Origin: Deltaproteobacteria bacterium
GTDB lineage: Bacteria; Desulfobacterota; Desulfuromonadia; Geobacterales; DSM-12255
Direction: 5' to 3'
Assembly: GCA_021849045.1 (NCBI GenBank)
Contig: JAJZTK010000013.1
Coordinates: 1-44,983 of the forward strand
Length of the DNA: 44,983 nt
Both the position numbers and the translations under genes were made by a program. Below, one piece after another: positions 31,951 through 44,983 of the stretch (positions are counted from its first letter, which is position 1; each line of letters begins with the position of its first letter). The notes under the pieces are model-generated. The model had not been told where the DNA came from and did no database searches. It saw nothing but the letters and a program-made list of their open reading frames with translations.

Positions 31951-33450
31951 ATGAATATAATTAGTACTAATGTCCCTAATTTCGGACAAATCGATCTGAT
32001 TTCCTATTACGATGACTTTAAAGACTATTATCCGAATTGTGAGTTGGCAACAAAGCAATGGTTTGTGGAAAATATAGAGGAAGACTGGATAATACTAGAT
32101 TGCGGTGCCAATATAGGCTACTTCAGCATTCTTTTTTCAAAACTTGCCAAGAATGGTCATGTTTATTCCTTTGAACCGACTTCAACTATTACAATGCTGC
32201 AAGACAACCTCGCTTATCATAAGGTCACCAACGTCACTCCAGTACAATGCGCACTTGGTAAAAGGAGTGGCACAACGATCGATAAAATATTTCGTATTTG
32301 GGGGAATGATCCTGAACAGCAGGCATACCCTTTCATATCAATTGATGACTTTATAAGAGGAAATAATATTTCCAAAGTCGATTGCATTAAAATAGACGTC
32401 GATTCGTTTGCCTTTGAAGTCCTGCAAGGGGCTGAGCAGACGCTTCTAGCGCACGATCCCTATGTCATGGTTGAATTGAATCATGCCCTCAACAAAAGGA
32501 ACCAAGCCAATACCCAGGCGCTTGAATGGCTTGCAAGTCTAGGGTACGCCAGTGCAATTGTACTAGATGACGACAATTTTCTGCTTAAGCGCGCCCCAAA
32601 GAATACGTCGGGTAAATATTTGGCCATTACCCTCAACTTTCCACTTGCAGATGTCTCTGCTAAACTTGAACCCATTCACAGAACTGCTGTTATCGGAGTC
32701 CAGTCAACTGTCCCGGTCCAAGAATACGGAATCGATATCCCCTTAGTGCATGTTTTTGATCTTCATTCAGTCTTAAATTTCACAACCCCTCTCGACTATC
32801 CAAAGTCTTCGCTGATCAAGAAGTTCTCTCAATGGAAGATGGAAGTAGATGACGCGCCGATTTTTCGCTACATCTACCGCAATGCCAAGCCTCGTAGGCA
32901 CCTGGAATTTGGAACCTGGCAGGGGAAGGGTACAGTTTTCTGCTTGGACGAATCCGAGGCCACAGTCTGGACCATAAATATGCCCTTTGGTGAAGGTTCA
33001 TACGGTTTTTACGAACATGAACTCCCGGATGCCCATGTCTGGGCCCGCAAGGTAGGGATAACGGCATCGGAGAGCTATTCATCCGATGCTATCGGCTTTA
33101 TCGGAAAAGATTATCTGGAACGAAATCTCGGCAAGCGTGTCTGCCAGATCTATTGCGATAGCCGTGAGTGGGACAGCTCCAATTATGGTGAAGGTTTCTT
33201 TGACACTGTCCTTGTTGACGGCGGGCATATGGCAGAAGTAGTTGCAAGCGACACACTCAAGTCACTTCCTCTGCTTCGATCGGGCGGCATCATCATGTGG
33301 CACGATTTTTGTCCTACAGATTACCAGAGGTTTGAGGCATGCAAGGGGGTGATGAACGGGGTTGCCCGCGAATGGGCCTTGATCAACGAGCAGATGGCAA
33401 AGCTGTTCTGGGTGTACCCCAGCATGATTCTTGTGGGAGTAAAGAAATGA
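31951..33450 (+). CDS. FkbM methyltransferase fused to a second methyltransferase-like domain
   Basis: A 499-residue two-domain protein. Residues about 45-215 are an FkbM-family methyltransferase: DCGANIGYFSILFS as motif I, YSFEPTS, VDCIKIDVDSFAFEVLQGAE as the hallmark. Residues about 295-490 form a second Methyltransf_24/cephalosporin-hydroxylase-like domain (RHLEFGTWQGKGTVF, DTVLVDGGHMAEVV, GGIIMWHDF). FkbM enzymes O-methylate sugars and macrolides. The first half is noticeably AT-richer than all neighbours, with TTT/AAT/ATA-type codons, whereas the second half returns to the local style. This suggests a recent acquisition or fusion. AAAAGAG precedes the ATG. Confidence 0.87.
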   Translation: MNIISTNVPNFGQIDLISYYDDFKDYYPNCELATKQWFVENIEEDWIILDCGANIGYFSILFSKLAKNGHVYSFEPTSTITMLQDNLAYHKVTNVTPVQCALGKRSGTTIDKIFRIWGNDPEQQAYPFISIDDFIRGNNISKVDCIKIDVDSFAFEVLQGAEQTLLAHDPYVMVELNHALNKRNQANTQALEWLASLGYASAIVLDDDNFLLKRAPKNTSGKYLAITLNFPLADVSAKLEPIHRTAVIGVQSTVPVQEYGIDIPLVHVFDLHSVLNFTTPLDYPKSSLIKKFSQWKMEVDDAPIFRYIYRNAKPRRHLEFGTWQGKGTVFCLDESEATVWTINMPFGEGSYGFYEHELPDAHVWARKVGITASESYSSDAIGFIGKDYLERNLGKRVCQIYCDSREWDSSNYGEGFFDTVLVDGGHMAEVVASDTLKSLPLLRSGGIIMWHDFCPTDYQRFEACKGVMNGVAREWALINEQMAKLFWVYPSMILVGVKK

Positions 33451-35363: not shown

Positions 35364-37721
35364 ATGGGGCACGCAGCAGTGATAGGCAGACTGCAGGGCA
35401 ATAACGTACAACTCCACCCTGAAACAATCCGCTATGCCCGCGCATGGCAGGAGGCATCACCGGGCACGGTAGCTCCCGATCCGGAAGCCTCTTCTCTCCT
35501 GCGCGTCTTTGACAATCTGTGCGGACAGTATGAGCGACCCTTTGTCATCGACGTGGGAGCGCACGTCGGGACCCTGTCGCTCGTCGGTGCGTTCAGGGAG
35601 AGTATCCGGGGATGGGCGTTCGAACCCCACCCGGCGGTTTGTGAGATCCTTAGGAGCAATCTTGCCGGTAACGGCATGGGAGAGAGGTTCACCGTCTTCC
35701 AGAAGGCGCTTTCCAACTATCCCGGCAGAAGGGTGCTGAAATCTCCGCACAACGACAGGGAATCGCGACTGTCCTGCATAGGACAGCCGAATTTCGGGAC
35801 ATACAAGGAATATTATGTCGATGTGGTGAGGCTTGACGATGTTGTCAGTTCGAGTGGCACTGATTCAGTGGACATCATCACAATCGATACCGAGGGATGC
35901 GAACTGTTCGTACTCATTGGCGCTGCTGAAACATTGCAGACCCATAAGCCGGACCTTCTGCTCAAGGTCAACTGGGCAACCCTCACCCAGTTCGGGGTCT
36001 ACGCCAACAACCTCACTGATTATCTGGAACTGCTCGGATACCATGGCCACTGGGTCGGGGCTGATGAGATGCTCTTCCGACATCCGTACAGAAAGGCTGA
36101 TGCGGGCAAGAAATATTTCGCCGGGCAGCCGGACAACGGCGGATTGAAGATTGCGCTGGTAAAGCAGCGCTACGATGTGTTTGGTCCCTGGCGCAGCCAA
36201 CACTATGATAGTGCGAACCCGATGGGTGTATTGGAGAAATGGCCTTCCAAGTATTCTTATCTTGAGATGACGCATCTGTTTCAGGCCGACTGGTATGTCG
36301 TTCCTTTTTGCCATGACTCCAAAATTGTGCGGCAAAAGATCGATTATCATCAGCAGGTGTTGGATGAGAATGTGGAGTATGTCCGGCATATCGATGAGGT
36401 GCTTCTCGATGAGTATGATGTCGTCATAACCCTAGACCCGATCCTCAGGCCTCCCAGAGACACCCGGACTCTCTTTGCCTATTTCCAGAACGAACATCAC
36501 AACAGTGAGTATGCACGTTCGCTCAGGGGGCCGTTGCCCGGCTATGATCTCTTCCTCGATCACATGATGTCCGCACCTGCCTGGATATATGATCTGCCGC
36601 AGCCGGTGGCGTTTCCCTATCCACGCGATCCTTTCATGGTCAGGAACGCCTGTCAGGGGCCTAAGAGCGAAGCCATATGGTTCGACAAGCGGTTCATCAT
36701 GATGCTGTCCCATGGCAACGAGGCCTTTGATCGTGGCGGGTTCGATGCTGCGGTGGCCTTTCTTGAAAAACGATTCAGGGCTCCAGTAGCGTTTCGGTAT
36801 CTTGATTTTGAAGACATGACCCGCTGGGGCGACCCGTATGAATATCTGCAGGCCATGGGCGCTTGCACCTATTATGTCAACCTGATCGCCTGCGGAGCTG
36901 GACAGGGGCTGTGCGATGCCGCCTCGCTCGGGCTCATCTGTTTCGGTTCTCCCAAGCTCCCCTACCACAGGATTGTCTGCCACCCCCTTTGCCTCTGTCG
37001 GGATTTGGCCGAATTTGCGGTGAAGTTTGCTCTTGTTCGCGATTCAGAAGAGTTGCGCCGCGAGATTGTTGCGTGGCAGGACATGGCATTGTCCGACAGG
37101 CTGATGAACCAACCTGTCCGGATGTTGCAGGCGGCTACAGAGAAGAAGCGGCGGGCGTATCCGGCGAAAAAGGTTCGAAGCGCTCTGCAGCCGCTATTGA
37201 CAGAGATATCTATCGATGAGTTGTTGCCGGATACTGCCAGGATAAATGACGTCAAGCTCAAAGCGCTGGCGCAAGCCGCATATCGGAACGGGTGCTACGA
37301 AGAAGCCCTCCATCGATGCAGGCAGGCGCTCTGGTTCGATCCGTCGGACCATGAGATCCACTATCTTGCCTCTCTTGCCTACTATGCCCTCAAAGACATG
37401 AAAAGCGTTGGCGACTCCCTGGAAAGCTGTTTAAAGCTCAAAAGCGACTTCAATCCCGCACTTACCATGCAACGGGTGCTGGCCCATGAACCCGGGACCG
37501 CGTCTGAAGACAGTAGATACGAGCATTGCAGGAATCGAGTCCTGTATTTGATGTACAACAGTTTTTCAGGGTTCAATCCTGAGATTGATGGGCAGAATAT
37601 GGATGTATACAACTCCATTCTCGACGAAGTCCTGTCCAAGCAGATCGAAGATGGCGATAGAGACAATCAGACGATCACATTCCATCATAAGATGAGACTC
37701 AACAGGATTGCGGGCATATGA
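35364..37721 (+). CDS. FkbM methyltransferase / glycosyltransferase-like / TPR fusion
   Basis: A 785-residue protein with three modules. Residues about 58-235 are an FkbM methyltransferase (FVIDVGAHVGTLSLVG, RGWAFEPHPAV, VDIITIDTEGCELFVLIGAAE). Residues about 265-600 resemble the CgeB/DUF3880-type GT-B region (IALVKQRYDVFGPW, then YEYLQAMGACTYYVNLIACGAGQG, then DAASLGLICFGSPKLPYH), with donor-site features less clear. Residues about 630-710 contain TPR repeats (ALHRCRQALWFDP). The start lacks a good ribosome-binding site and probably relies on coupling to the gene 7 bases upstream. The architecture suggests transfer of a sugar that is then methylated by the same polypeptide; inference. Confidence 0.78.
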   Translation: MGHAAVIGRLQGNNVQLHPETIRYARAWQEASPGTVAPDPEASSLLRVFDNLCGQYERPFVIDVGAHVGTLSLVGAFRESIRGWAFEPHPAVCEILRSNLAGNGMGERFTVFQKALSNYPGRRVLKSPHNDRESRLSCIGQPNFGTYKEYYVDVVRLDDVVSSSGTDSVDIITIDTEGCELFVLIGAAETLQTHKPDLLLKVNWATLTQFGVYANNLTDYLELLGYHGHWVGADEMLFRHPYRKADAGKKYFAGQPDNGGLKIALVKQRYDVFGPWRSQHYDSANPMGVLEKWPSKYSYLEMTHLFQADWYVVPFCHDSKIVRQKIDYHQQVLDENVEYVRHIDEVLLDEYDVVITLDPILRPPRDTRTLFAYFQNEHHNSEYARSLRGPLPGYDLFLDHMMSAPAWIYDLPQPVAFPYPRDPFMVRNACQGPKSEAIWFDKRFIMMLSHGNEAFDRGGFDAAVAFLEKRFRAPVAFRYLDFEDMTRWGDPYEYLQAMGACTYYVNLIACGAGQGLCDAASLGLICFGSPKLPYHRIVCHPLCLCRDLAEFAVKFALVRDSEELRREIVAWQDMALSDRLMNQPVRMLQAATEKKRRAYPAKKVRSALQPLLTEISIDELLPDTARINDVKLKALAQAAYRNGCYEEALHRCRQALWFDPSDHEIHYLASLAYYALKDMKSVGDSLESCLKLKSDFNPALTMQRVLAHEPGTASEDSRYEHCRNRVLYLMYNSFSGFNPEIDGQNMDVYNSILDEVLSKQIEDGDRDNQTITFHHKMRLNRIAGI

Positions 37722-37740
37722 TGCCCTTTCGGTGATCCCC

Positions 37741-40290
37741 ATGCTGCCTGGCTATGCACATGATACGCTTGCCCCTCCATCGGACAGCCCTGAAGGGTGG
37801 TTCGTGCTGGGGGTCAACTATACCCAGGCCAAGGATTTCGCTGCTGCCGAAGCATGTTTTCGTAAAACCCTGGCACTGGCGCCCGATTCCCAGCCGACCC
37901 TGCTGAACCTCGGCTACGTGCTGGGTGAACAGGGCCGGTATGAGGAATCGCTGCACTGCTACGACCGGGTTCTGGCTGCCTCCCCCGAATGCGCCGAGGC
38001 CCGCTACAACCGGGCCGCCCACCTCTTGCGCATGGGGAACCTGAAGGACGGGTTTGCCGATTACGAGGCCAGGTTTGCCGCCATGAAAGGGGCGGATAGC
38101 CGCATCTATCCCCAGCCGCGCTGGGACGGCTCTCCTCTTGAAGGTCGCAGTATCCTGGTTTACTGTGAGCAGGGGTTGGGCGATGCCCTGATGTTCTCCC
38201 GCTATGTTCCGCTGCTGGCCCGCATGGGCGGTCGCGTGATCCTTGAGGTCCAGCCGCCGCTGGTTTCCCTGATGTCGCTTCTTGAAGGGGTCTCACAGGT
38301 GGTGGCAAAGTCCGTGCTCCCCCCCTTGACCGATACCCACATACCGCTGCTCAGCCTGCCCCATCTCCTAGAAACTCGCATGGAGACTCTTCCCGCCCAT
38401 GTTCCCTACCTGAAAGCCCCGCAGGAAAAGTTTGCCGAATGGCAAGCCAGGATTGGGGCGGTATCGCGCGGTTACCGCGTCGGCATTGCCTGGGCCGGCA
38501 AGGAGCACCCGTATCCAAACCGCTCCTGTCCGCCGGAATATCTGCTCCCCTTGCTTCAATTGCCGCAGGTCGGTTTCTTTTCCCTGCAGGTGGGCGAAAA
38601 GGACCGCTTCCCGCTGCCACCGGCATCTTCCGACAGGGTAATCGACCTGACTGACAACCTCTGCGATTTTGCCGATACCGCCGCCCTGATTGCCGGTCTC
38701 GATCTGGTCATCACAATCGATACAGCTGTGGCCCATCTGGCCGGGGCAATGGGGAAACCGACCTGGGTGTTGCTCCCGCATCTGGCTGATTGGCGATGGT
38801 TGCTGCATCGGGACGATTCCCCCTGGTACTCCACCACGCGCCTCTTTCGGCAGCCGCAGGACGGAGACTGGTCCTCAGTCATCGGCAATGTAACCGCAGC
38901 GCTGCAGAGCCTTCTGGCACAATGGCAGCCGACAGCCGAAACCGCCGAGGCCATTTTTCAGGAATCTGTAAAGCGCATCGAGCAGGGAGACCCTGCGGGT
39001 GCCATTGGTGCACTTCAAACCCTATGCGGCAATGACCCGGATGACCCGGCTGTATGGTATCAACTGGGAAGGGCGTATCAGTTGGCTGAACAGCCGTCAG
39101 GAGCGGAGCACTGTTACAAGCGGGCACTTTTACTTCAGCCGCAAAGTGCGGCCATCTGGCTTGCCCTTGGTGAGTTGCAGCTGAAACGGAATGCCTTCGG
39201 CGATGCTGAGCCCTTTCTGCGCAGGGCCCACTCACTGGCGCCTGATTCCATTGACATACTTCTCAATCTTGGCGCAGCCTTTGTTGGCCAAAACAAGACG
39301 GACGAGGCATTTGATTGTTGCCGCAACATGCTGATCTTGGATCCCGAATGTGCATTGGCGCTGACCAATATGGCCTACCTTCAACTTCGGAGTGGTAACT
39401 ATGAGGCCGGATTCGCCAATTTTGAAGCACGCCTGAGGGTAGAAGAATTCGCGATCGACACACGCGACTATCGGCAGCCGCGCTGGGATGGCGCATCCCT
39501 TGAAGGCAAAAGTATCCTTGTCTATGGCGAGCAGGGGATGGGAGACGTCATCCAGTTTTCCCGCTATCTCCCACTGCTTGCAGCGCGAGCAGATAAAATC
39601 GTTTTTGAAATCGATCCGCCACTGATTCCTTTATTTAAGGATTTTTCCGGCACGGTTCAAGTTGTTCCAAAATCGTCACATCCACCTTTGACCGATGCCT
39701 ACATCCAGTTGCTGAGCCTCCCGCATCTGTTTGGCACCACTCTCGATACTGTTCCCGCGGACGTTCCGTATCTGTTCCCGGACCGGACCAAGACCCGGTA
39801 TTGGCAGGAACGCCTTATGCATGTCGAAAATGCCCGTGTGGGGTTGGCGTGGCGTGGAAGCCCTCGAAATCCGAATGATAAAGAACGTTCCTGTCCGGTT
39901 ACCGCGCTTGCGTCACTTGGCGGTTTGCCAAACGTCAGCTTTTTCAGCCTCCAGGTCGGGCCGGCGGCGGAAGGGATTGCCACTGAACTCCGACTGACGG
40001 ACCTTGCCGATGAGTTGAAGGACTGGACCGACACGGCTGCCGCGATTGCCAACCTCGACTTGGTGATAACCGTTGACACCGCTGTGGCCCATCTGGCCGG
40101 GGCATTGGGAAAGCCGGTCTGGGTCATGCTGCCGTTTGCCGGAGATTGGCGCTGGATCAGAGGAAGAAACGATACCCCTTGGTATCCTTCCATGCGGCTC
40201 TTCTGGCAGGAGCGCTGGGGTGACTGGGCCGGGGTAATTGAGCGGGTCCGGGCCGCCTTGGAAGAGCTGGTGAGAGAACGGCATGGCTGA
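37741..40290 (+). CDS. Tandem TPR-glycosyltransferase polyprotein (two complete modules)
   Basis: An 849-residue protein made of two successive TPR-plus-glycosyltransferase modules. The GT part is a GT-B fold of the heptosyltransferase-like (GT9-like) kind common in TPR-containing glycosyltransferase family proteins. Each module has an N-half motif (CEQGLGD near residue 142; GEQGMGD near 595) and a C-half motif (DTAVAHLAGA near 326 and 779) ending in a DWRW...SPWY / TPWY segment. TPRs lie at about 20-115 and 405-570. The ATG at 37741 has GGTGA close by; upstream in-frame TTG/GTG codons (37708, 37732) are alternatives. It ends in an 8-base overlap with the next, related gene. Two active sites imply two sugar additions or processive transfer, probably on flagellin. 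Confidence 0.88.
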   Translation: MLPGYAHDTLAPPSDSPEGWFVLGVNYTQAKDFAAAEACFRKTLALAPDSQPTLLNLGYVLGEQGRYEESLHCYDRVLAASPECAEARYNRAAHLLRMGNLKDGFADYEARFAAMKGADSRIYPQPRWDGSPLEGRSILVYCEQGLGDALMFSRYVPLLARMGGRVILEVQPPLVSLMSLLEGVSQVVAKSVLPPLTDTHIPLLSLPHLLETRMETLPAHVPYLKAPQEKFAEWQARIGAVSRGYRVGIAWAGKEHPYPNRSCPPEYLLPLLQLPQVGFFSLQVGEKDRFPLPPASSDRVIDLTDNLCDFADTAALIAGLDLVITIDTAVAHLAGAMGKPTWVLLPHLADWRWLLHRDDSPWYSTTRLFRQPQDGDWSSVIGNVTAALQSLLAQWQPTAETAEAIFQESVKRIEQGDPAGAIGALQTLCGNDPDDPAVWYQLGRAYQLAEQPSGAEHCYKRALLLQPQSAAIWLALGELQLKRNAFGDAEPFLRRAHSLAPDSIDILLNLGAAFVGQNKTDEAFDCCRNMLILDPECALALTNMAYLQLRSGNYEAGFANFEARLRVEEFAIDTRDYRQPRWDGASLEGKSILVYGEQGMGDVIQFSRYLPLLAARADKIVFEIDPPLIPLFKDFSGTVQVVPKSSHPPLTDAYIQLLSLPHLFGTTLDTVPADVPYLFPDRTKTRYWQERLMHVENARVGLAWRGSPRNPNDKERSCPVTALASLGGLPNVSFFSLQVGPAAEGIATELRLTDLADELKDWTDTAAAIANLDLVITVDTAVAHLAGALGKPVWVMLPFAGDWRWIRGRNDTPWYPSMRLFWQERWGDWAGVIERVRAALEELVRERHG

Positions 40291-43200
40291 AATGACATGG
40301 GATGAGATCGAAGCCTGCTACAAGCTCGGGTCCCGGCTCAAGGATGAGGGCGACCTCGCCGGTGCCGAGAGCTGTTTCAGGCGCATTCTGGATGTTGACC
40401 CGGATCTGCCCGATCTCCGGCACGCCCTGGGCGTTGTTCTGCAGCTAATGGGGAAGCTGCAGGAGGCCGTTGCCCACTACCAGGCAGCGATCGTACTTGA
40501 TCCACTGCTTGTCAAGGCCCGTTACAACCTGGCAGATACCTATTCACGCCTCGGGCTTTTCCGGGAAGCGATCGGGGCAGCAACTGCGACGCTCCAGTAC
40601 GACCCGGGCCATGCCGACGCCCATTGGCTTCTGGGGATGCTCCTGCTCCGAAACGGTGATTTCCGGAACGGCTGGCGTGAGTATGAATGGCGATGGAAGG
40701 GCCGGGGGTTTACATCCACGATGCCCGACTTTGACCGGCCGCTCTGGGATGGGTCCCCTTTGGAGGGCAGAACCCTGTTGATCCACATGGAACAGGGGCG
40801 TGGCGACATGATCCAGTTCGTCCGGTTTGTGCCGCTTGCAGCAGCGAAAGGAGGAGACGTCGTTGTCTGCGCTCTCAGGGAACTGGTGCCGCTTTTGGCC
40901 ACGGTAGAGGGGGTGGCCCGGGTGCTTGACCGGGATGGTCCACTGCCTGCGTTTGATCTCCATCTGCCGGTACAAAGCCTGCCATATATCCTCGGCATCA
41001 CCCTGGATACGATCCCCAACCGTGTCCCTTACCTCTGGCCGGACCAGGAGAAGGTTTCCATCTGGAATGGGGTGCTTGACGATCAAACCTGTCGCGTCGG
41101 CTTGGTCTGGCAGGGAACGGCTTCCCATCCGGATGATCAGAACCGTTCATGTCCTTTGTCAACATTCCGGCCGTTAGGAGAGCTGCAGGGGGTCACCCTT
41201 TACAGCCTGCAGATCGGCAACGGTTCCGAGCAACTTGCCGAGGCTTGCACTTACCTGCCGCTAGTTGACGTTACCGACAGGATCCGCGATTTTTCCGACA
41301 CGGCTGCCCTGGTCGCAAATCTCGACCTTGTGATCAGCGTCGATACTGCTGTGGCCCATCTTGCGGGCGCTCTCGGCAAGCCGGTCTGGCTCATGCTTCC
41401 GTATGTTTCGGAATGGCGCTGGCTGCAAGGTCGGGACGATTCCCCCTGGTACCCCACCATACGGCTCTTTCGGCAGAGTGCGCCCGGCGATTGGGAAGGA
41501 CTGCTGACGAGGGTAAAGGGGGAGCTGGCACAGCAGCTCTCCGCAGCTGTTCCTGACAATCAGAGCGGCATCGAATTGATGCAGCAGGGGCGCTATGCCC
41601 AGGCCGAGAATGTATTTTCCGCTGCGGCGAGGCTCAACCCCGCCTCTGCCGACGCCCATTGCAACCGGGGCGTGGCTTTGGATGCCATGGAGCGCTACGA
41701 GGAGGCGCTGGACTGCTACCGGCAGGCGTTATCGCTCAGGCCCGATTTTGTGCAGGCGCTCTTCAACATGGGGAATACCTACCGCTCCCTGCACAATCCG
41801 GAAAGTGCCTGTGCCTGCTACCAGCGGGTCGTTGAAATGGTGCCGGATTTTTTAGCGGCGTATCTTTGCCTTGGAGAGCTTGCCAAGGAACAGCGGAACT
41901 TCGACGAGGCCCGCGGCCATTTTGAGAAAGCCCTGGCGCGTGACCCGGGATGCGTTGACGCCGTGCAGGGGATTGCGGAGATTTTACAGGCAACGGAAGC
42001 TTTCCAAGGGGCAGTAGAGGCCTATCGGCAGGTTCTGGCACTCGCACCTCACCGCCCGACTGCCTGGAACATGCTGGGGACGACATATCATTGCCTGGAA
42101 AAACTGGCCGAGGCCGAGGCTTGCTACCGGCAGGCATCGGTCCTTGACCCCGACCGGCCGACCATCCTCAACAATCTGGGGGCAGTGCTGCATGCACAGG
42201 GAGCTCCGCAAGGGGCAGCAGCACTGTTTCGTTCCATCATTGAGAAGTATCCCGACAATGCCGAGGCCCATTGGAATCTTGCCCTTGCACTGCTTGCACT
42301 GGGGCAGTACCAGGAAGGCTGGCAAGAGTATGAATGGCGATTTCGGAAAGTAAATCCGGTGCTTGAGCGGGAGTATCGCCAGCCTCGCTGGGATGGATCT
42401 CCTTTGCAGGGGAGGACGGTCCTGCTCTGGTGCGAACAGGGGTTCGGCGACACGATACAATTCTCACGTTATGTGCCGTTGGTTGCACAACTGGGCGGTA
42501 GGGTCGTTCTGGAGTGTCAGGTCCCGGCACTGAAGCGACTGCTCTGTTCGCTGGAAGGGGTCACCCAGGTGGTGGTCACCGACGACCCTTTACCTCCGTT
42601 CGACTGTCACGTGCCCTTGTTGTCGCTCCCGCTCCTGTTCGGCACAACCGTGGAAAACATGCCTGCCGGAGTTCCCTATCTTCATGCGGAGCAGGCAGAT
42701 ATCGAGCTGTGGCGCCAAAGGTTGGGACCAGCCGCAGGATACCGGGTGGGGCTTGTCTGGTTCGGCCGGCAGGGGCAGGTATTGAACCGCAAGCGGTCGT
42801 GTCCTCTGGAGATGCTTTCGCCCCTTGCCACTATTCCGAACCTGGAGCTTTACAGCCTGCAAGTGGGGGAAGGTTCGGAACAGCTCGATAATAGCACTAT
42901 CCCTCTCACGATCATCGACCTGACGGGACATATTCGCGATTTTGCAGATACTGCGGCCTTCATGGGCAATCTCGATCTGGTAATCACGATAGATACGGCC
43001 GTTGCCCACCTGGCAGGAGCGCTCGGTGTGCCCACATGGGTACTTCTTCCCTACAGCGCTGATTGGCGCTGGCTTTTGCATCGTTCGGACAGCCCCTGGT
43101 ATCCGGCAATGCGTCTGTTCCGGCAATCAGCGGTGGGGGATTGGTCTTCGGTTGTGAACGCAATTACAGATCTGCTTGGCAAGGCTGTTCATGACGGTGA

Positions 43201-44485
43201 TTCCGTCAGGGAATCGAGCGTGCAACCCGGCATGATTCAGGTGGCAGATGATTGGGAGGCAAGAAGCGGTTGCAGTGCACAGAGAGATGCAAAGAATGAT
43301 ACCTCGACAGTGATGCGCGTAGGGCTGGCTTGGTCCGGTCGCCAGGATAATCCGCTCAACCGCAAGAGGACGTGCCCGTTATCCTCTTTGGCCCCCTTGC
43401 TTGAACGGTCTGATGTTGACTTCTACAGCCTGCAACTAGGTGGTGAGAACGACAGCGGGACCTGTGGTTCCAACCACCTGATCGATCTTACCGGCAGCAT
43501 ACGTGATTTTGAGGACACGGCCGCATTGATGGCAACCCTCGATCTGGTGATTACGATTGACACTGCAGTTGCCCATTTGGCCGGGGCCCTGGGACGGCCG
43601 ACCTGGGTGCTCCTCCCCCATGTCGCCGACTGGCGGTGGCTACAGTCGCGGGACGACAGCCCCTGGTATCCGGATATGCGCCTGTTTCGCCAGCCTGACC
43701 ACGGTGACTGGGGTGGTGTGATCCGCCAGGTGGTCGTCGCCCTTGCCGGCCTGACCGGCAAACGGACAGTCAGGGAGATGCCGGAGGTTTGCCCGCCTGT
43801 TTGCCCTGAACCGTCGCCGGAATGTCTGTCGGTTGAGCGGTTGCTGGAGCATCACCAGAAGAATTTGGCGGAAAATCCAGCCAGCCCCGCTGTCCATCTT
43901 GATGTGGGGGCCGCCTTGGCGCTGCTCGGGAGACACGAGGAGTCGATTCCGTACTTTCGGAAAACCCTGGTGCTGGCGCCTGAACTCGTGGCAGCACATC
44001 TCAATTTGGCGTATGCCCTGCTGACACTCGGGGAGTACCGCGAAGGATGGGAGCATTTTGAGTGGCGACTGCGCAGGGTCGCGCCCGGGCAGATTCCTCC
44101 CTGGCCAATGTTGGGACAGGAGGAATTTGGTATGCACCCACGAGGCACCTCTGTTCTTGTGCACTGCGAGCAGGGATTTGGGGACACCATTCAGTTTGTC
44201 CGGTTCCTGCCGATGCTTGCTGATGCCGGTTACAAGGTCGTTGTGAGTTGTCAGCCTCAGTTGGCAACACTCATGAATTCGGTCCGTGGCGTCAGCCAGA
44301 TTGTTCCCCACGGCCAACCGCTACCCATGTGTGATCTGCAACTGCTGTTGCTCAGTCTCCCCCGTCTATTCGCGACAACGTTGGAGACTCTGCCGGCTTC
44401 CATGCCGTATCTTGTTCCCCGTCCCCAACTGGTCGCGGAATGGAGAAAAAGGTTATTCGAGCACGATATTTTTTTCCTAAAGTAA
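40283..44485 (+). CDS. Giant TPR-glycosyltransferase polyprotein with misordered half-domains
   Basis: A 1400-residue protein related to the previous one. Order: TPR (about 5-140), GT N-half (EQGRGD near 172), GT C-half (DTAVAHLAGA near 352); a long TPR block (about 425-690), GT N-half (EQGFGD near 717), GT C-half (near 898); a polar linker (about 970-1010); a GT C-half alone (MRVGLAWSG near 1010, DTAVAHLAGA near 1088); TPR (about 1195-1275); a GT N-half alone (EQGFGD near 1293) ending at 1400. The last N-half stops just where its C-half should begin (LFEHDIFFLK). Modules 1 and 2 look complete; the last two are an unpaired C-half and an unpaired N-half. GAGAG precedes the ATG. It lies immediately upstream of the flagellin gene and likely glycosylates it. 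Confidence 0.88.
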   Translation: MAEMTWDEIEACYKLGSRLKDEGDLAGAESCFRRILDVDPDLPDLRHALGVVLQLMGKLQEAVAHYQAAIVLDPLLVKARYNLADTYSRLGLFREAIGAATATLQYDPGHADAHWLLGMLLLRNGDFRNGWREYEWRWKGRGFTSTMPDFDRPLWDGSPLEGRTLLIHMEQGRGDMIQFVRFVPLAAAKGGDVVVCALRELVPLLATVEGVARVLDRDGPLPAFDLHLPVQSLPYILGITLDTIPNRVPYLWPDQEKVSIWNGVLDDQTCRVGLVWQGTASHPDDQNRSCPLSTFRPLGELQGVTLYSLQIGNGSEQLAEACTYLPLVDVTDRIRDFSDTAALVANLDLVISVDTAVAHLAGALGKPVWLMLPYVSEWRWLQGRDDSPWYPTIRLFRQSAPGDWEGLLTRVKGELAQQLSAAVPDNQSGIELMQQGRYAQAENVFSAAARLNPASADAHCNRGVALDAMERYEEALDCYRQALSLRPDFVQALFNMGNTYRSLHNPESACACYQRVVEMVPDFLAAYLCLGELAKEQRNFDEARGHFEKALARDPGCVDAVQGIAEILQATEAFQGAVEAYRQVLALAPHRPTAWNMLGTTYHCLEKLAEAEACYRQASVLDPDRPTILNNLGAVLHAQGAPQGAAALFRSIIEKYPDNAEAHWNLALALLALGQYQEGWQEYEWRFRKVNPVLEREYRQPRWDGSPLQGRTVLLWCEQGFGDTIQFSRYVPLVAQLGGRVVLECQVPALKRLLCSLEGVTQVVVTDDPLPPFDCHVPLLSLPLLFGTTVENMPAGVPYLHAEQADIELWRQRLGPAAGYRVGLVWFGRQGQVLNRKRSCPLEMLSPLATIPNLELYSLQVGEGSEQLDNSTIPLTIIDLTGHIRDFADTAAFMGNLDLVITIDTAVAHLAGALGVPTWVLLPYSADWRWLLHRSDSPWYPAMRLFRQSAVGDWSSVVNAITDLLGKAVHDGDSVRESSVQPGMIQVADDWEARSGCSAQRDAKNDTSTVMRVGLAWSGRQDNPLNRKRTCPLSSLAPLLERSDVDFYSLQLGGENDSGTCGSNHLIDLTGSIRDFEDTAALMATLDLVITIDTAVAHLAGALGRPTWVLLPHVADWRWLQSRDDSPWYPDMRLFRQPDHGDWGGVIRQVVVALAGLTGKRTVREMPEVCPPVCPEPSPECLSVERLLEHHQKNLAENPASPAVHLDVGAALALLGRHEESIPYFRKTLVLAPELVAAHLNLAYALLTLGEYREGWEHFEWRLRRVAPGQIPPWPMLGQEEFGMHPRGTSVLVHCEQGFGDTIQFVRFLPMLADAGYKVVVSCQPQLATLMNSVRGVSQIVPHGQPLPMCDLQLLLLSLPRLFATTLETLPASMPYLVPRPQLVAEWRKRLFEHDIFFLK

Positions 44486-44570: not shown

Positions 44571-44983
44571 ATGGCAATCAGCGACATCTCTCTAACCGCG
44601 GGCATGAGGAACAACCTTCTTGCACTGCAATCGACCGCGCAGAACCTGCAGCAGACCCAGGACCGCCTGAGCAGCGGCAAGCGGGTAAACTCGGCCCTCG
44701 ACAACCCGACCAACTATTTTGCGGCTCAAAACGCCCTCAACCGTGCCAGCGACTTTGACGCCCGTAAAGACGGCATGAGTGAGGCAATCCAGACCATCAA
44801 GGCGGCCAATGCCGGCATCTCGGCCATCACCTCCCTGATCCAGTCTGCCAAAGGCCTGGCCAGTGCTGCCATGTCCACCAACGACACCCTGGCACAGGCA
44901 ACCTACCAGACACAGTTCGCCCAGATCCAGACCCAGATCACCAACTTGGCTAGCGACTCCGGTTACCGCGGGAACAACCTGCT
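44571..44983 (+). CDS. fliC: Flagellin, N-terminal part (gene continues beyond window)
   Basis: 137 codons of the major flagellar filament protein are visible before the window ends. The conserved D0/D1 N-terminus is plain: SLTAGMRNNLLALQ, QDRLSSGKRVNSALDNPTNYF, then ISAITSLIQSAKGLASAA, giving the coiled helices that pack in the filament. The second residue is Ala and there is no signal peptide, as expected for type III export. AAGGAG lies eight bases before the ATG, and a sigma-28 promoter with two leader hairpins is upstream. The surface-exposed D2/D3 region, where O-glycosylation would be expected, is outside the window. Its position directly after the TPR-glycosyltransferase genes points to glycosylated flagellin. 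Confidence 0.95.
   Translation, partial: MAISDISLTAGMRNNLLALQSTAQNLQQTQDRLSSGKRVNSALDNPTNYFAAQNALNRASDFDARKDGMSEAIQTIKAANAGISAITSLIQSAKGLASAAMSTNDTLAQATYQTQFAQIQTQITNLASDSGYRGNNL

Follow-up and report, generated by a model that had tools for sequence, protein, structure and literature searches.

A C-TPR-N arrangement of glycosyltransferase halves at the end of an array preceding flagellin in Geobacterales

Layout of the array and its last unit

The stretch of DNA analysed in our study (the window) is 44,983 nucleotides long and comprises a whole contig (JAJZTK010000013.1), one of 271 contigs in a 4.33 Mb assembly (GCA_021849045.1; listed completeness 99.73%) of a Deltaproteobacteria bacterium of the order Geobacterales. 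Near its end, two open reading frames (ORFs) on the plus strand, overlapping by 8 bp, were found to encode an array of glycosyltransferase modules, in which tetratricopeptide repeats (TPR) are followed by the two Rossmann halves of a GT-B unit, an acceptor half (N-half) and a nucleotide-sugar half (C-half). The upstream ORF (37708–40290; 860 amino acids, TTG start uncertain) contained modules 1 and 2, both complete in the order TPR-N-C. The downstream ORF (40283–44485; 1400 amino acids) reads TPR-N-C, TPR-N-C, followed by a C-half, TPR, an N-half and the stop; it thus contained the complete modules 3 and 4 and then the segment C5-TPR-N5.

Module 3 (40283–41530, plus strand as are all features of the array) contained TPR, N3 and C3 in canonical order and was followed by a long TPR block preceding N4 (41570–42322, ends approximate). 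Module 4 (42332–43183) contained N4 and C4 and corresponds to a canonical GT-B unit with the GT9 heptosyltransferase fold. The linker between C4 and C5 (43184–43306) was variable in an alignment of five sequences and of low confidence in the structure model, where residues 384–419 had a predicted local distance difference test score (pLDDT) below 50. The C5 half (43307–43750) has no N-half before it and begins at the strand of the hinge between N- and C-halves. It was followed by TPR helices (43817–44077, ends taken from the model, running slightly into the N5 profile match) and by N5 (44060–44470), which contained EQGFGD, has no C-half after it and finishes in the hinge helix. The next gene, the N-terminal part of a flagellin gene (44571–44983, plus strand), was cut by the contig end.

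Hidden Markov models of the half-domains, built from the window's own modules, gave the order N-C-N-C-C-N in the 1400-residue protein, with 4 residues beyond the last N-half; TPR repeats occupied much of the remaining protein. The EQGxGD motifs start at residues 170, 718 and 1296, and the DTAVAHLA motifs at residues 354, 904 and 1093. The original prediction had given 172, 717 and 1293 and 352, 898 and 1088, respectively, which are off by at most 6 residues, and it had correctly described the unpaired last C-half and last N-half and the stop at a domain boundary. It had also proposed that the two halves form a third active site with an inserted TPR block. Because the upstream overlapping ORF carries two modules and the two ORFs are a single one in 12 of 16 arrays, C5-TPR-N5 is to be counted as the fifth unit of the locus, and the TPR between C5 and N5 resembles the TPR preceding the other N-halves, so that no new insertion is seen. 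A hidden C-half beyond the stop in another frame was also considered and rejected, as only flagellin was seen when about 500–900 downstream bases were read by eye in three frames in five genomes.

Distribution of the C-TPR-N end

A profile of the C5-TPR-N5 alignment was searched against 141 genomes of the order Geobacterales. Twenty genomes, the window's own and 19 others, matched at 522–737 bits and belonged to seven genera and two families; the next-best match below them had 379 bits. All 20 arrays were found to end C-C-N, with the stop 1–19 residues after N5 (G138, cut at a contig edge, shows C-C-N only), and a fragment at a contig end (G102) was excluded from the counts. The same order was therefore recovered in homologues, as the original prediction had asked, and none of the 20 contained the complete last module that would mark a strain-specific truncation in the window. 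The flagellin gene, recognised by its N-terminal sequence, started 57–143 bp past the last sense codon in 20 of 20 genomes.

The search of named genomes gave 27 loci, of which 15 (L076–L090, overlapping in part with the 20 genomes) shared the C-TPR-N end and 12 did not. In these 12 loci a C-half was the last half in every scored ORF, some of which contained 38–290 further residues. Two isolates of the order Geobacterales, Pelotalea chapellei DSM 13688 and Oryzomonas japonica Red96, carried the C-TPR-N end on their contigs. The relatives point to Geobacterales for the window as well. The presence of the same order in 20 genomes and in the contigs of two isolates excludes chance and misassembly. 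The identity of C5-TPR-N5 to that of the window was 51–62% in the 15 named relatives. Among these relatives and the window (16 arrays, hereafter the 16 relatives), 12 arrays formed a single ORF, ten with the order N1C1-N2C2-N3C3-N4C4-C5-N5 and two (L076 and L080) without module 1; the array was split between modules 2 and 3 in the window, L081, L088 and L090. The difference reflects either a split or a fusion of the array at this point. The number of N-halves equalled that of C-halves in every permuted ORF (window, L039–L042 and L076–L090), being 3+3, 4+4 or 5+5, with L085 cut at its 5' edge.

Another contig of the same genome (C264; L007:1-6000) opens with a sequence recognised by eye as a flagellin 3' end. 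Next come an ORF whose like follows flagellin in six of seven relatives compared and a single-module TPR-N-C gene on the opposite strand, for which a similarly placed counterpart was present in five of the seven. Because of the flagellin 3' end and the same following genes as in relatives, this contig is probably the continuation of the window across a contig gap in flagellin. Truncation or misassembly of the array was ruled out by the 20 genomes together with this synteny across the gap.

The seven genomes next below the 20 (379 to 293 bits) contained canonical N-C arrays, with no flagellin in the stretch examined. We also compared 20 further stretches of the order, chosen around flagellin genes or arrays. 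In 13 of them a complete last N-C module adjoined flagellin; the other seven contained a C-terminal extension past the last C-half (three), a gap before flagellin (two) or no array (two). The array of G113 contained module types 1, 2, 3 and 4 (its third C-half matching type 1 best) and that of G085 contained types 1, 3 and 4, each followed directly by flagellin. Because these orthologous arrays at the same locus contain neither C5 nor N5, the permuted unit was either added to an array that is orthologous in its other parts or lost from it. Arrays with C5 but not N5, or with N5 but not C5, were not seen, the query having contained both halves and thus being biased against them.

In the wider phylum, a search of 395 sampled genomes at E 1e-70 had two hits, one in the window's own genome and one in G015; a very divergent permuted unit would escape it. 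Of 13 genomes listed for the window's family, that of the window was the sole one with the permuted array, which its congener G001 lacked; the remaining 19 permuted arrays all came from a single other family. The flagellin island may have been transferred horizontally.

Motifs, selection and predicted structure

The N5 motif EQG[FY]GD was conserved in all of the 16 relatives, as was the aspartate of C5, and the histidine of C5 was present in 15. The GT9-type Asp of the N-half (G-x-G-D) and Asp...His of the C-half are present in C5-TPR-N5, but the N-before-C order is violated in 20 of 20 genomes. Mean pairwise identity among the 16 relatives was 59.9% for N5 and 65.5% for C5, compared with 60.4–67.7% for N1–N4 and 58.8–67.1% for C1–C4, C5 being the second of the five C-halves; conservation of the two halves is thus similar to that of complete modules. 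The motif pattern under-counts C2 and C3, owing to its narrow residue class, and two of the 16 N2 halves lacked the N pattern. The C-half Asp was substituted by Cys in module 3 of four relatives (L076, L078, L086 and L089) and by Glu in module 2 of one (L081); judged from the motif, such modules may lack activity or have an altered one. The window retained the Asp in all five C-halves.

The ratio of nonsynonymous to synonymous substitution rates (dN/dS) was calculated for the eight closest genome pairs. It ranged from 0.05 to 0.51 for C5 and N5, where dS was computable, and from 0.05 to 0.21 for N4 and C4. The highest C5 value (0.51) and a nearly highest N5 value (0.30) were obtained for the closest pair, in which few substitutions separate the sequences. 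With dN/dS below 1 for both halves, C5 and N5 are under purifying selection, N5 somewhat more loosely than N4.

When modules 1, 3 and 4 were scanned singly against the GT9 family PF01075 (cut-off 22 bits), modules 1 and 3 passed with 25.1 and 26.7 bits, respectively, and module 4 was just below with 19.9 bits; the whole proteins scored 59.8 and 43.2 bits. C5 scored 27 bits, above the cut-off. Against the sequences of solved structures, C5 had three WaaC matches, all weak (best E 0.35), in which its Asp and His aligned on Asp261 and His266 of WaaC. The sequence profile of module 4 gave no match to solved structures up to E 10, and that of N5 gave 12 matches (best E 0.2), all to unrelated proteins.

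An AlphaFold2 model of 811 residues covering TPR-N4-C4-C5-TPR-N5 had a pLDDT of 79.7 and a predicted template modelling score (pTM) of 0.51. Module 4 of this model matched solved structures, the highest being 3tov (Z 18.7 over 252 residues at 3.1 A), followed by 1psw (17.9) and 6dfe (16.8); as modelled, module 4 has a GT-B fold of the GT9 kind. In the models, the orphan halves C5 and N5 resembled C4 and N4 in the succession of their strands and helices. The model of the 396-residue C5-TPR-N5 segment alone had a pLDDT of 83.5 and a pTM of 0.85. By the usual pTM formula and our own rough error figures, a pTM of about 0.53–0.58 is expected for this segment if C5 is uncertain by 15–30 A, and about 0.83 if it is placed to 3 A; for the long model the expected values are 0.50 with two rigid bodies 20 A uncertain and 0.48 with three loose bodies. 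Because a pTM of 0.85 is hard to reach with a loosely placed C5, C5 is, according to the model, firmly placed against TPR-N5, and the long model agrees with mobility of the unit relative to module 4. We infer that the C5:N5 contact is a GT-B cleft. The structure prediction proposed earlier thus speaks for a firm placement of C5. Fold searches with the permuted unit gave TPR matches and partial TPR-plus-GT matches, with no GT9 chain among the matches listed.

Proposed pairing of the halves, origin and gene neighbourhood

C5-TPR-N5 probably represents a working permuted GT-B unit within one chain. A working rearranged enzyme is preferred over a broken one because nineteen related genomes keep the layout. 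C5 and N5 would fold together in one chain into a complete GT-B unit of the order C-TPR-N, the fifth of the array, with the new chain ends at the hinge that normally connects the N-half with the C-half, and with the TPR of the module itself bridging the far ends. The C5:N5 cleft would be GT9-like, the Asp of N5 acting as the base and the Asp and His of C5 holding the donor, roles known from WaaC. From its position before flagellin and its sugar-nucleotide and methyltransferase neighbours, the array probably glycosylates flagellin; its TPR blocks would hold or present the acceptor, as in FlmG, and each GT-B unit would add one sugar. Catalysis, flagellin as the acceptor and the identity of the sugar are properties that we infer for this array.

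Several results weigh against this reading. N5 ranks last in identity among the N-halves of the five units (60.4% in the one above it), its dN/dS exceeded that of N4 in all six pairs where both were computable, and it had no match to PF01075. The docking rests on the pTM of the best of five models made from a 16-row alignment, with mean pLDDT falling from 83.5 to 68.2 across the five; the pTM of 0.51 of the long model cannot separate a docked from an undocked C5:N5, AlphaFold2 might dock any C-TPR-N pair, non-cognate ones included, and the fold searches are insensitive to permuted geometry. The permuted pairing put forward in the original prediction was thereby upheld in part: it is favoured by the pTM of the C-TPR-N model, with a contact geometry that is putative. 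Arrays with one half may be under-counted, since the 20 were found with a two-half query. In the co-divergence analysis of 14 genomes every N-half correlated highest with its own C-half, N5-C5 included; with 19 genomes, N5-C5 (0.66) and N5-C4 (0.65) were nearly equal, and the preference for C5 was positive in 51% of 1000 bootstraps, N4 still preferring C4 in 95%. Co-divergence of the sequences is thus uninformative and neither supports nor refutes the N5-C5 pairing. As C5 is a close kin of C4, N4 or N5 might be able to use either C4 or C5.

It is unlikely that C5 and N5 are non-enzymatic structural or binding parts, such as a dead lectin-like or capping pair, or that C5 serves as a second donor half for N4. 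Such roles would agree with the grouping of C5 with C4 in the C-half tree (94/96) and with a co-divergence that cannot separate N5-C5 from N5-C4, and the loss of the Asp from the module-3 C-halves of four of the 16 relatives indicates that activity is not maintained in all halves. A pseudo-enzyme should accumulate changes at the Asp, which is kept in 16 of 16 in both N5 and C5. Pairing in trans, in which C5 of one chain and N5 of another form a dimer or a chain through a split GT-B, is to be regarded as quite unlikely, given the confident placement of C5 inside one chain by AlphaFold2 (pTM 0.85). The long variable linker between C4 and C5 would permit it, the sequence is compatible with it, and the GT9-like TibC (4rap, Z 16.3) is titled dodecameric, so that oligomers are known in the fold group. 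It is highly improbable that deletions have reduced a fifth and a sixth module to these two broken halves, or that the strain or the assembly is truncated. The trees are compatible with two source modules and a deletion at the hinge; the order, the place of the stop and the downstream gene are the same in 20 of 20 genomes of seven genera, with 51–62% identity in the 15 named relatives, dN/dS is below 1, and the probable next contig begins with the flagellin 3' end and the next genes of the relatives. Decay by deletions, offered as an alternative in the original prediction, is contradicted by this conserved order, the intact motifs and the dN/dS values.

For the working permuted unit, the trees bear on the origin of its halves. 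In the N-half tree, N5 was found in a clade with N-halves of the second or third modules of five canonical arrays of the order (100/99). In the C-half tree, C5 grouped with C4, and seven of its nine rows grouped with C-halves of the first modules of four canonical arrays (100/97). The C partners of the N5-like halves were in a separate clade in four of five cases (100/99), the fifth being on a long branch elsewhere. Bootstrap support was unsettled in both trees, and C-halves swap between positions. Because the trees group N5 and C5 with different ancestral modules, the two may come from different modules, which would make the unit a mosaic and not one circularly permuted module. The simplest reading is that hinge cuts in one module and in a later one released a C-TPR-N segment, which was joined behind module 4; a later conversion of C5 by C4 is a possible alternative. 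That a new GT-B active site, with the nucleotide-sugar half before the acceptor half, arose by hinge-to-hinge shuffling that re-paired the halves of two tandem modules across a TPR is a proposal to which we give even chances. The C-halves of some relatives also grouped with other positions, C3 of L077 with C1, and C1 of both L077 and L079 with C2; this grouping suggests gene conversion among the modules of these two arrays.

To our knowledge, no natural GT-B enzyme has its two Rossmann halves reversed. A literature search, largely outside subscription journals and mostly without full texts, found no permuted GT-B, and PMC11046441, PMC12419801 and PMC1683948, in the parts available, were not about it. 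GT9-like folds, TPR-GT fusions and flagellin glycosyltransferases are known parts; the permuted variant appears to be new. Pairing of C5 with N5 would mean that a GT-B unit can be cut at its hinge, which bears on the evolution of modular glycosyltransferases and on the engineering of split or permuted ones. The array is also a multi-site, probably flagellin-modifying system; at this one locus, close relatives differ in how many modules they have and in what order, and a rule of one module for one sugar or site becomes testable in species with named strains, e.g., Oryzomonas japonica and Pelotalea chapellei.

The array resembles several known systems in part. The GT9 heptosyltransferases (PF01075; WaaC, WaaF and the Veillonella 3tov) match the canonical module in fold (Z 16.5–18.7), in the PF01075 match over the Asp-containing part and in the Asp/His of the C-half, whereas their order is N then C, opposite to that of the permuted unit, in which N5 lacked the PF01075 match. 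We know of no TPR and no tandem modules in solved GT9 relatives. The autotransporter heptosyltransferases of the TibC type (4rap and 4rb4), which modify protein rather than lipopolysaccharide, have a GT9-like GT-B (Z 16.2–16.3 to module 4) but are, according to their entry titles, single-module dodecamers with iron, unlike the multi-module array, and we know of no TPR array in them. OGT and SPINDLY (GT41) are protein-modifying enzymes with TPR followed by GT-B; their TPRs matched the array, and structural matches across TPR and GT together had a root mean square deviation near 15 A. They contain one GT-B in N-C order and belong to another GT family. The GH70 glucansucrases share fold and catalytic residues with GH13 in a permuted chain order, as far as the available part of the source describes; there a barrel is permuted inside one domain, whereas here two Rossmann halves swap places around a TPR block. 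FlmG of Caulobacter crescentus contains a TPR domain and a GT-B domain, its TPR part binds flagellins, and it is needed for flagellin glycosylation, according to the available part of PMC7591256. FlmG, of 596 residues, contains a single TPR and a single GT-B-like domain, compared with up to five GT-B units here, the last being C-TPR-N, and is likened to the array by architecture. TPRs are present in the array and, by analogy with FlmG, may bind flagellin; the link to flagellin was found here in the gene neighbourhood alone.

The genes upstream of the array encode a uridine diphosphate (UDP)-sugar dehydrogenase, a protein with two GT domains, a radical SAM protein and several methyltransferases, a set resembling a flagellin glycosylation island. 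The island contained two FkbM-type methyltransferase proteins (35364–37721 and 31951–33450) and further methyltransferases, which suggest methylated flagellin sugars.
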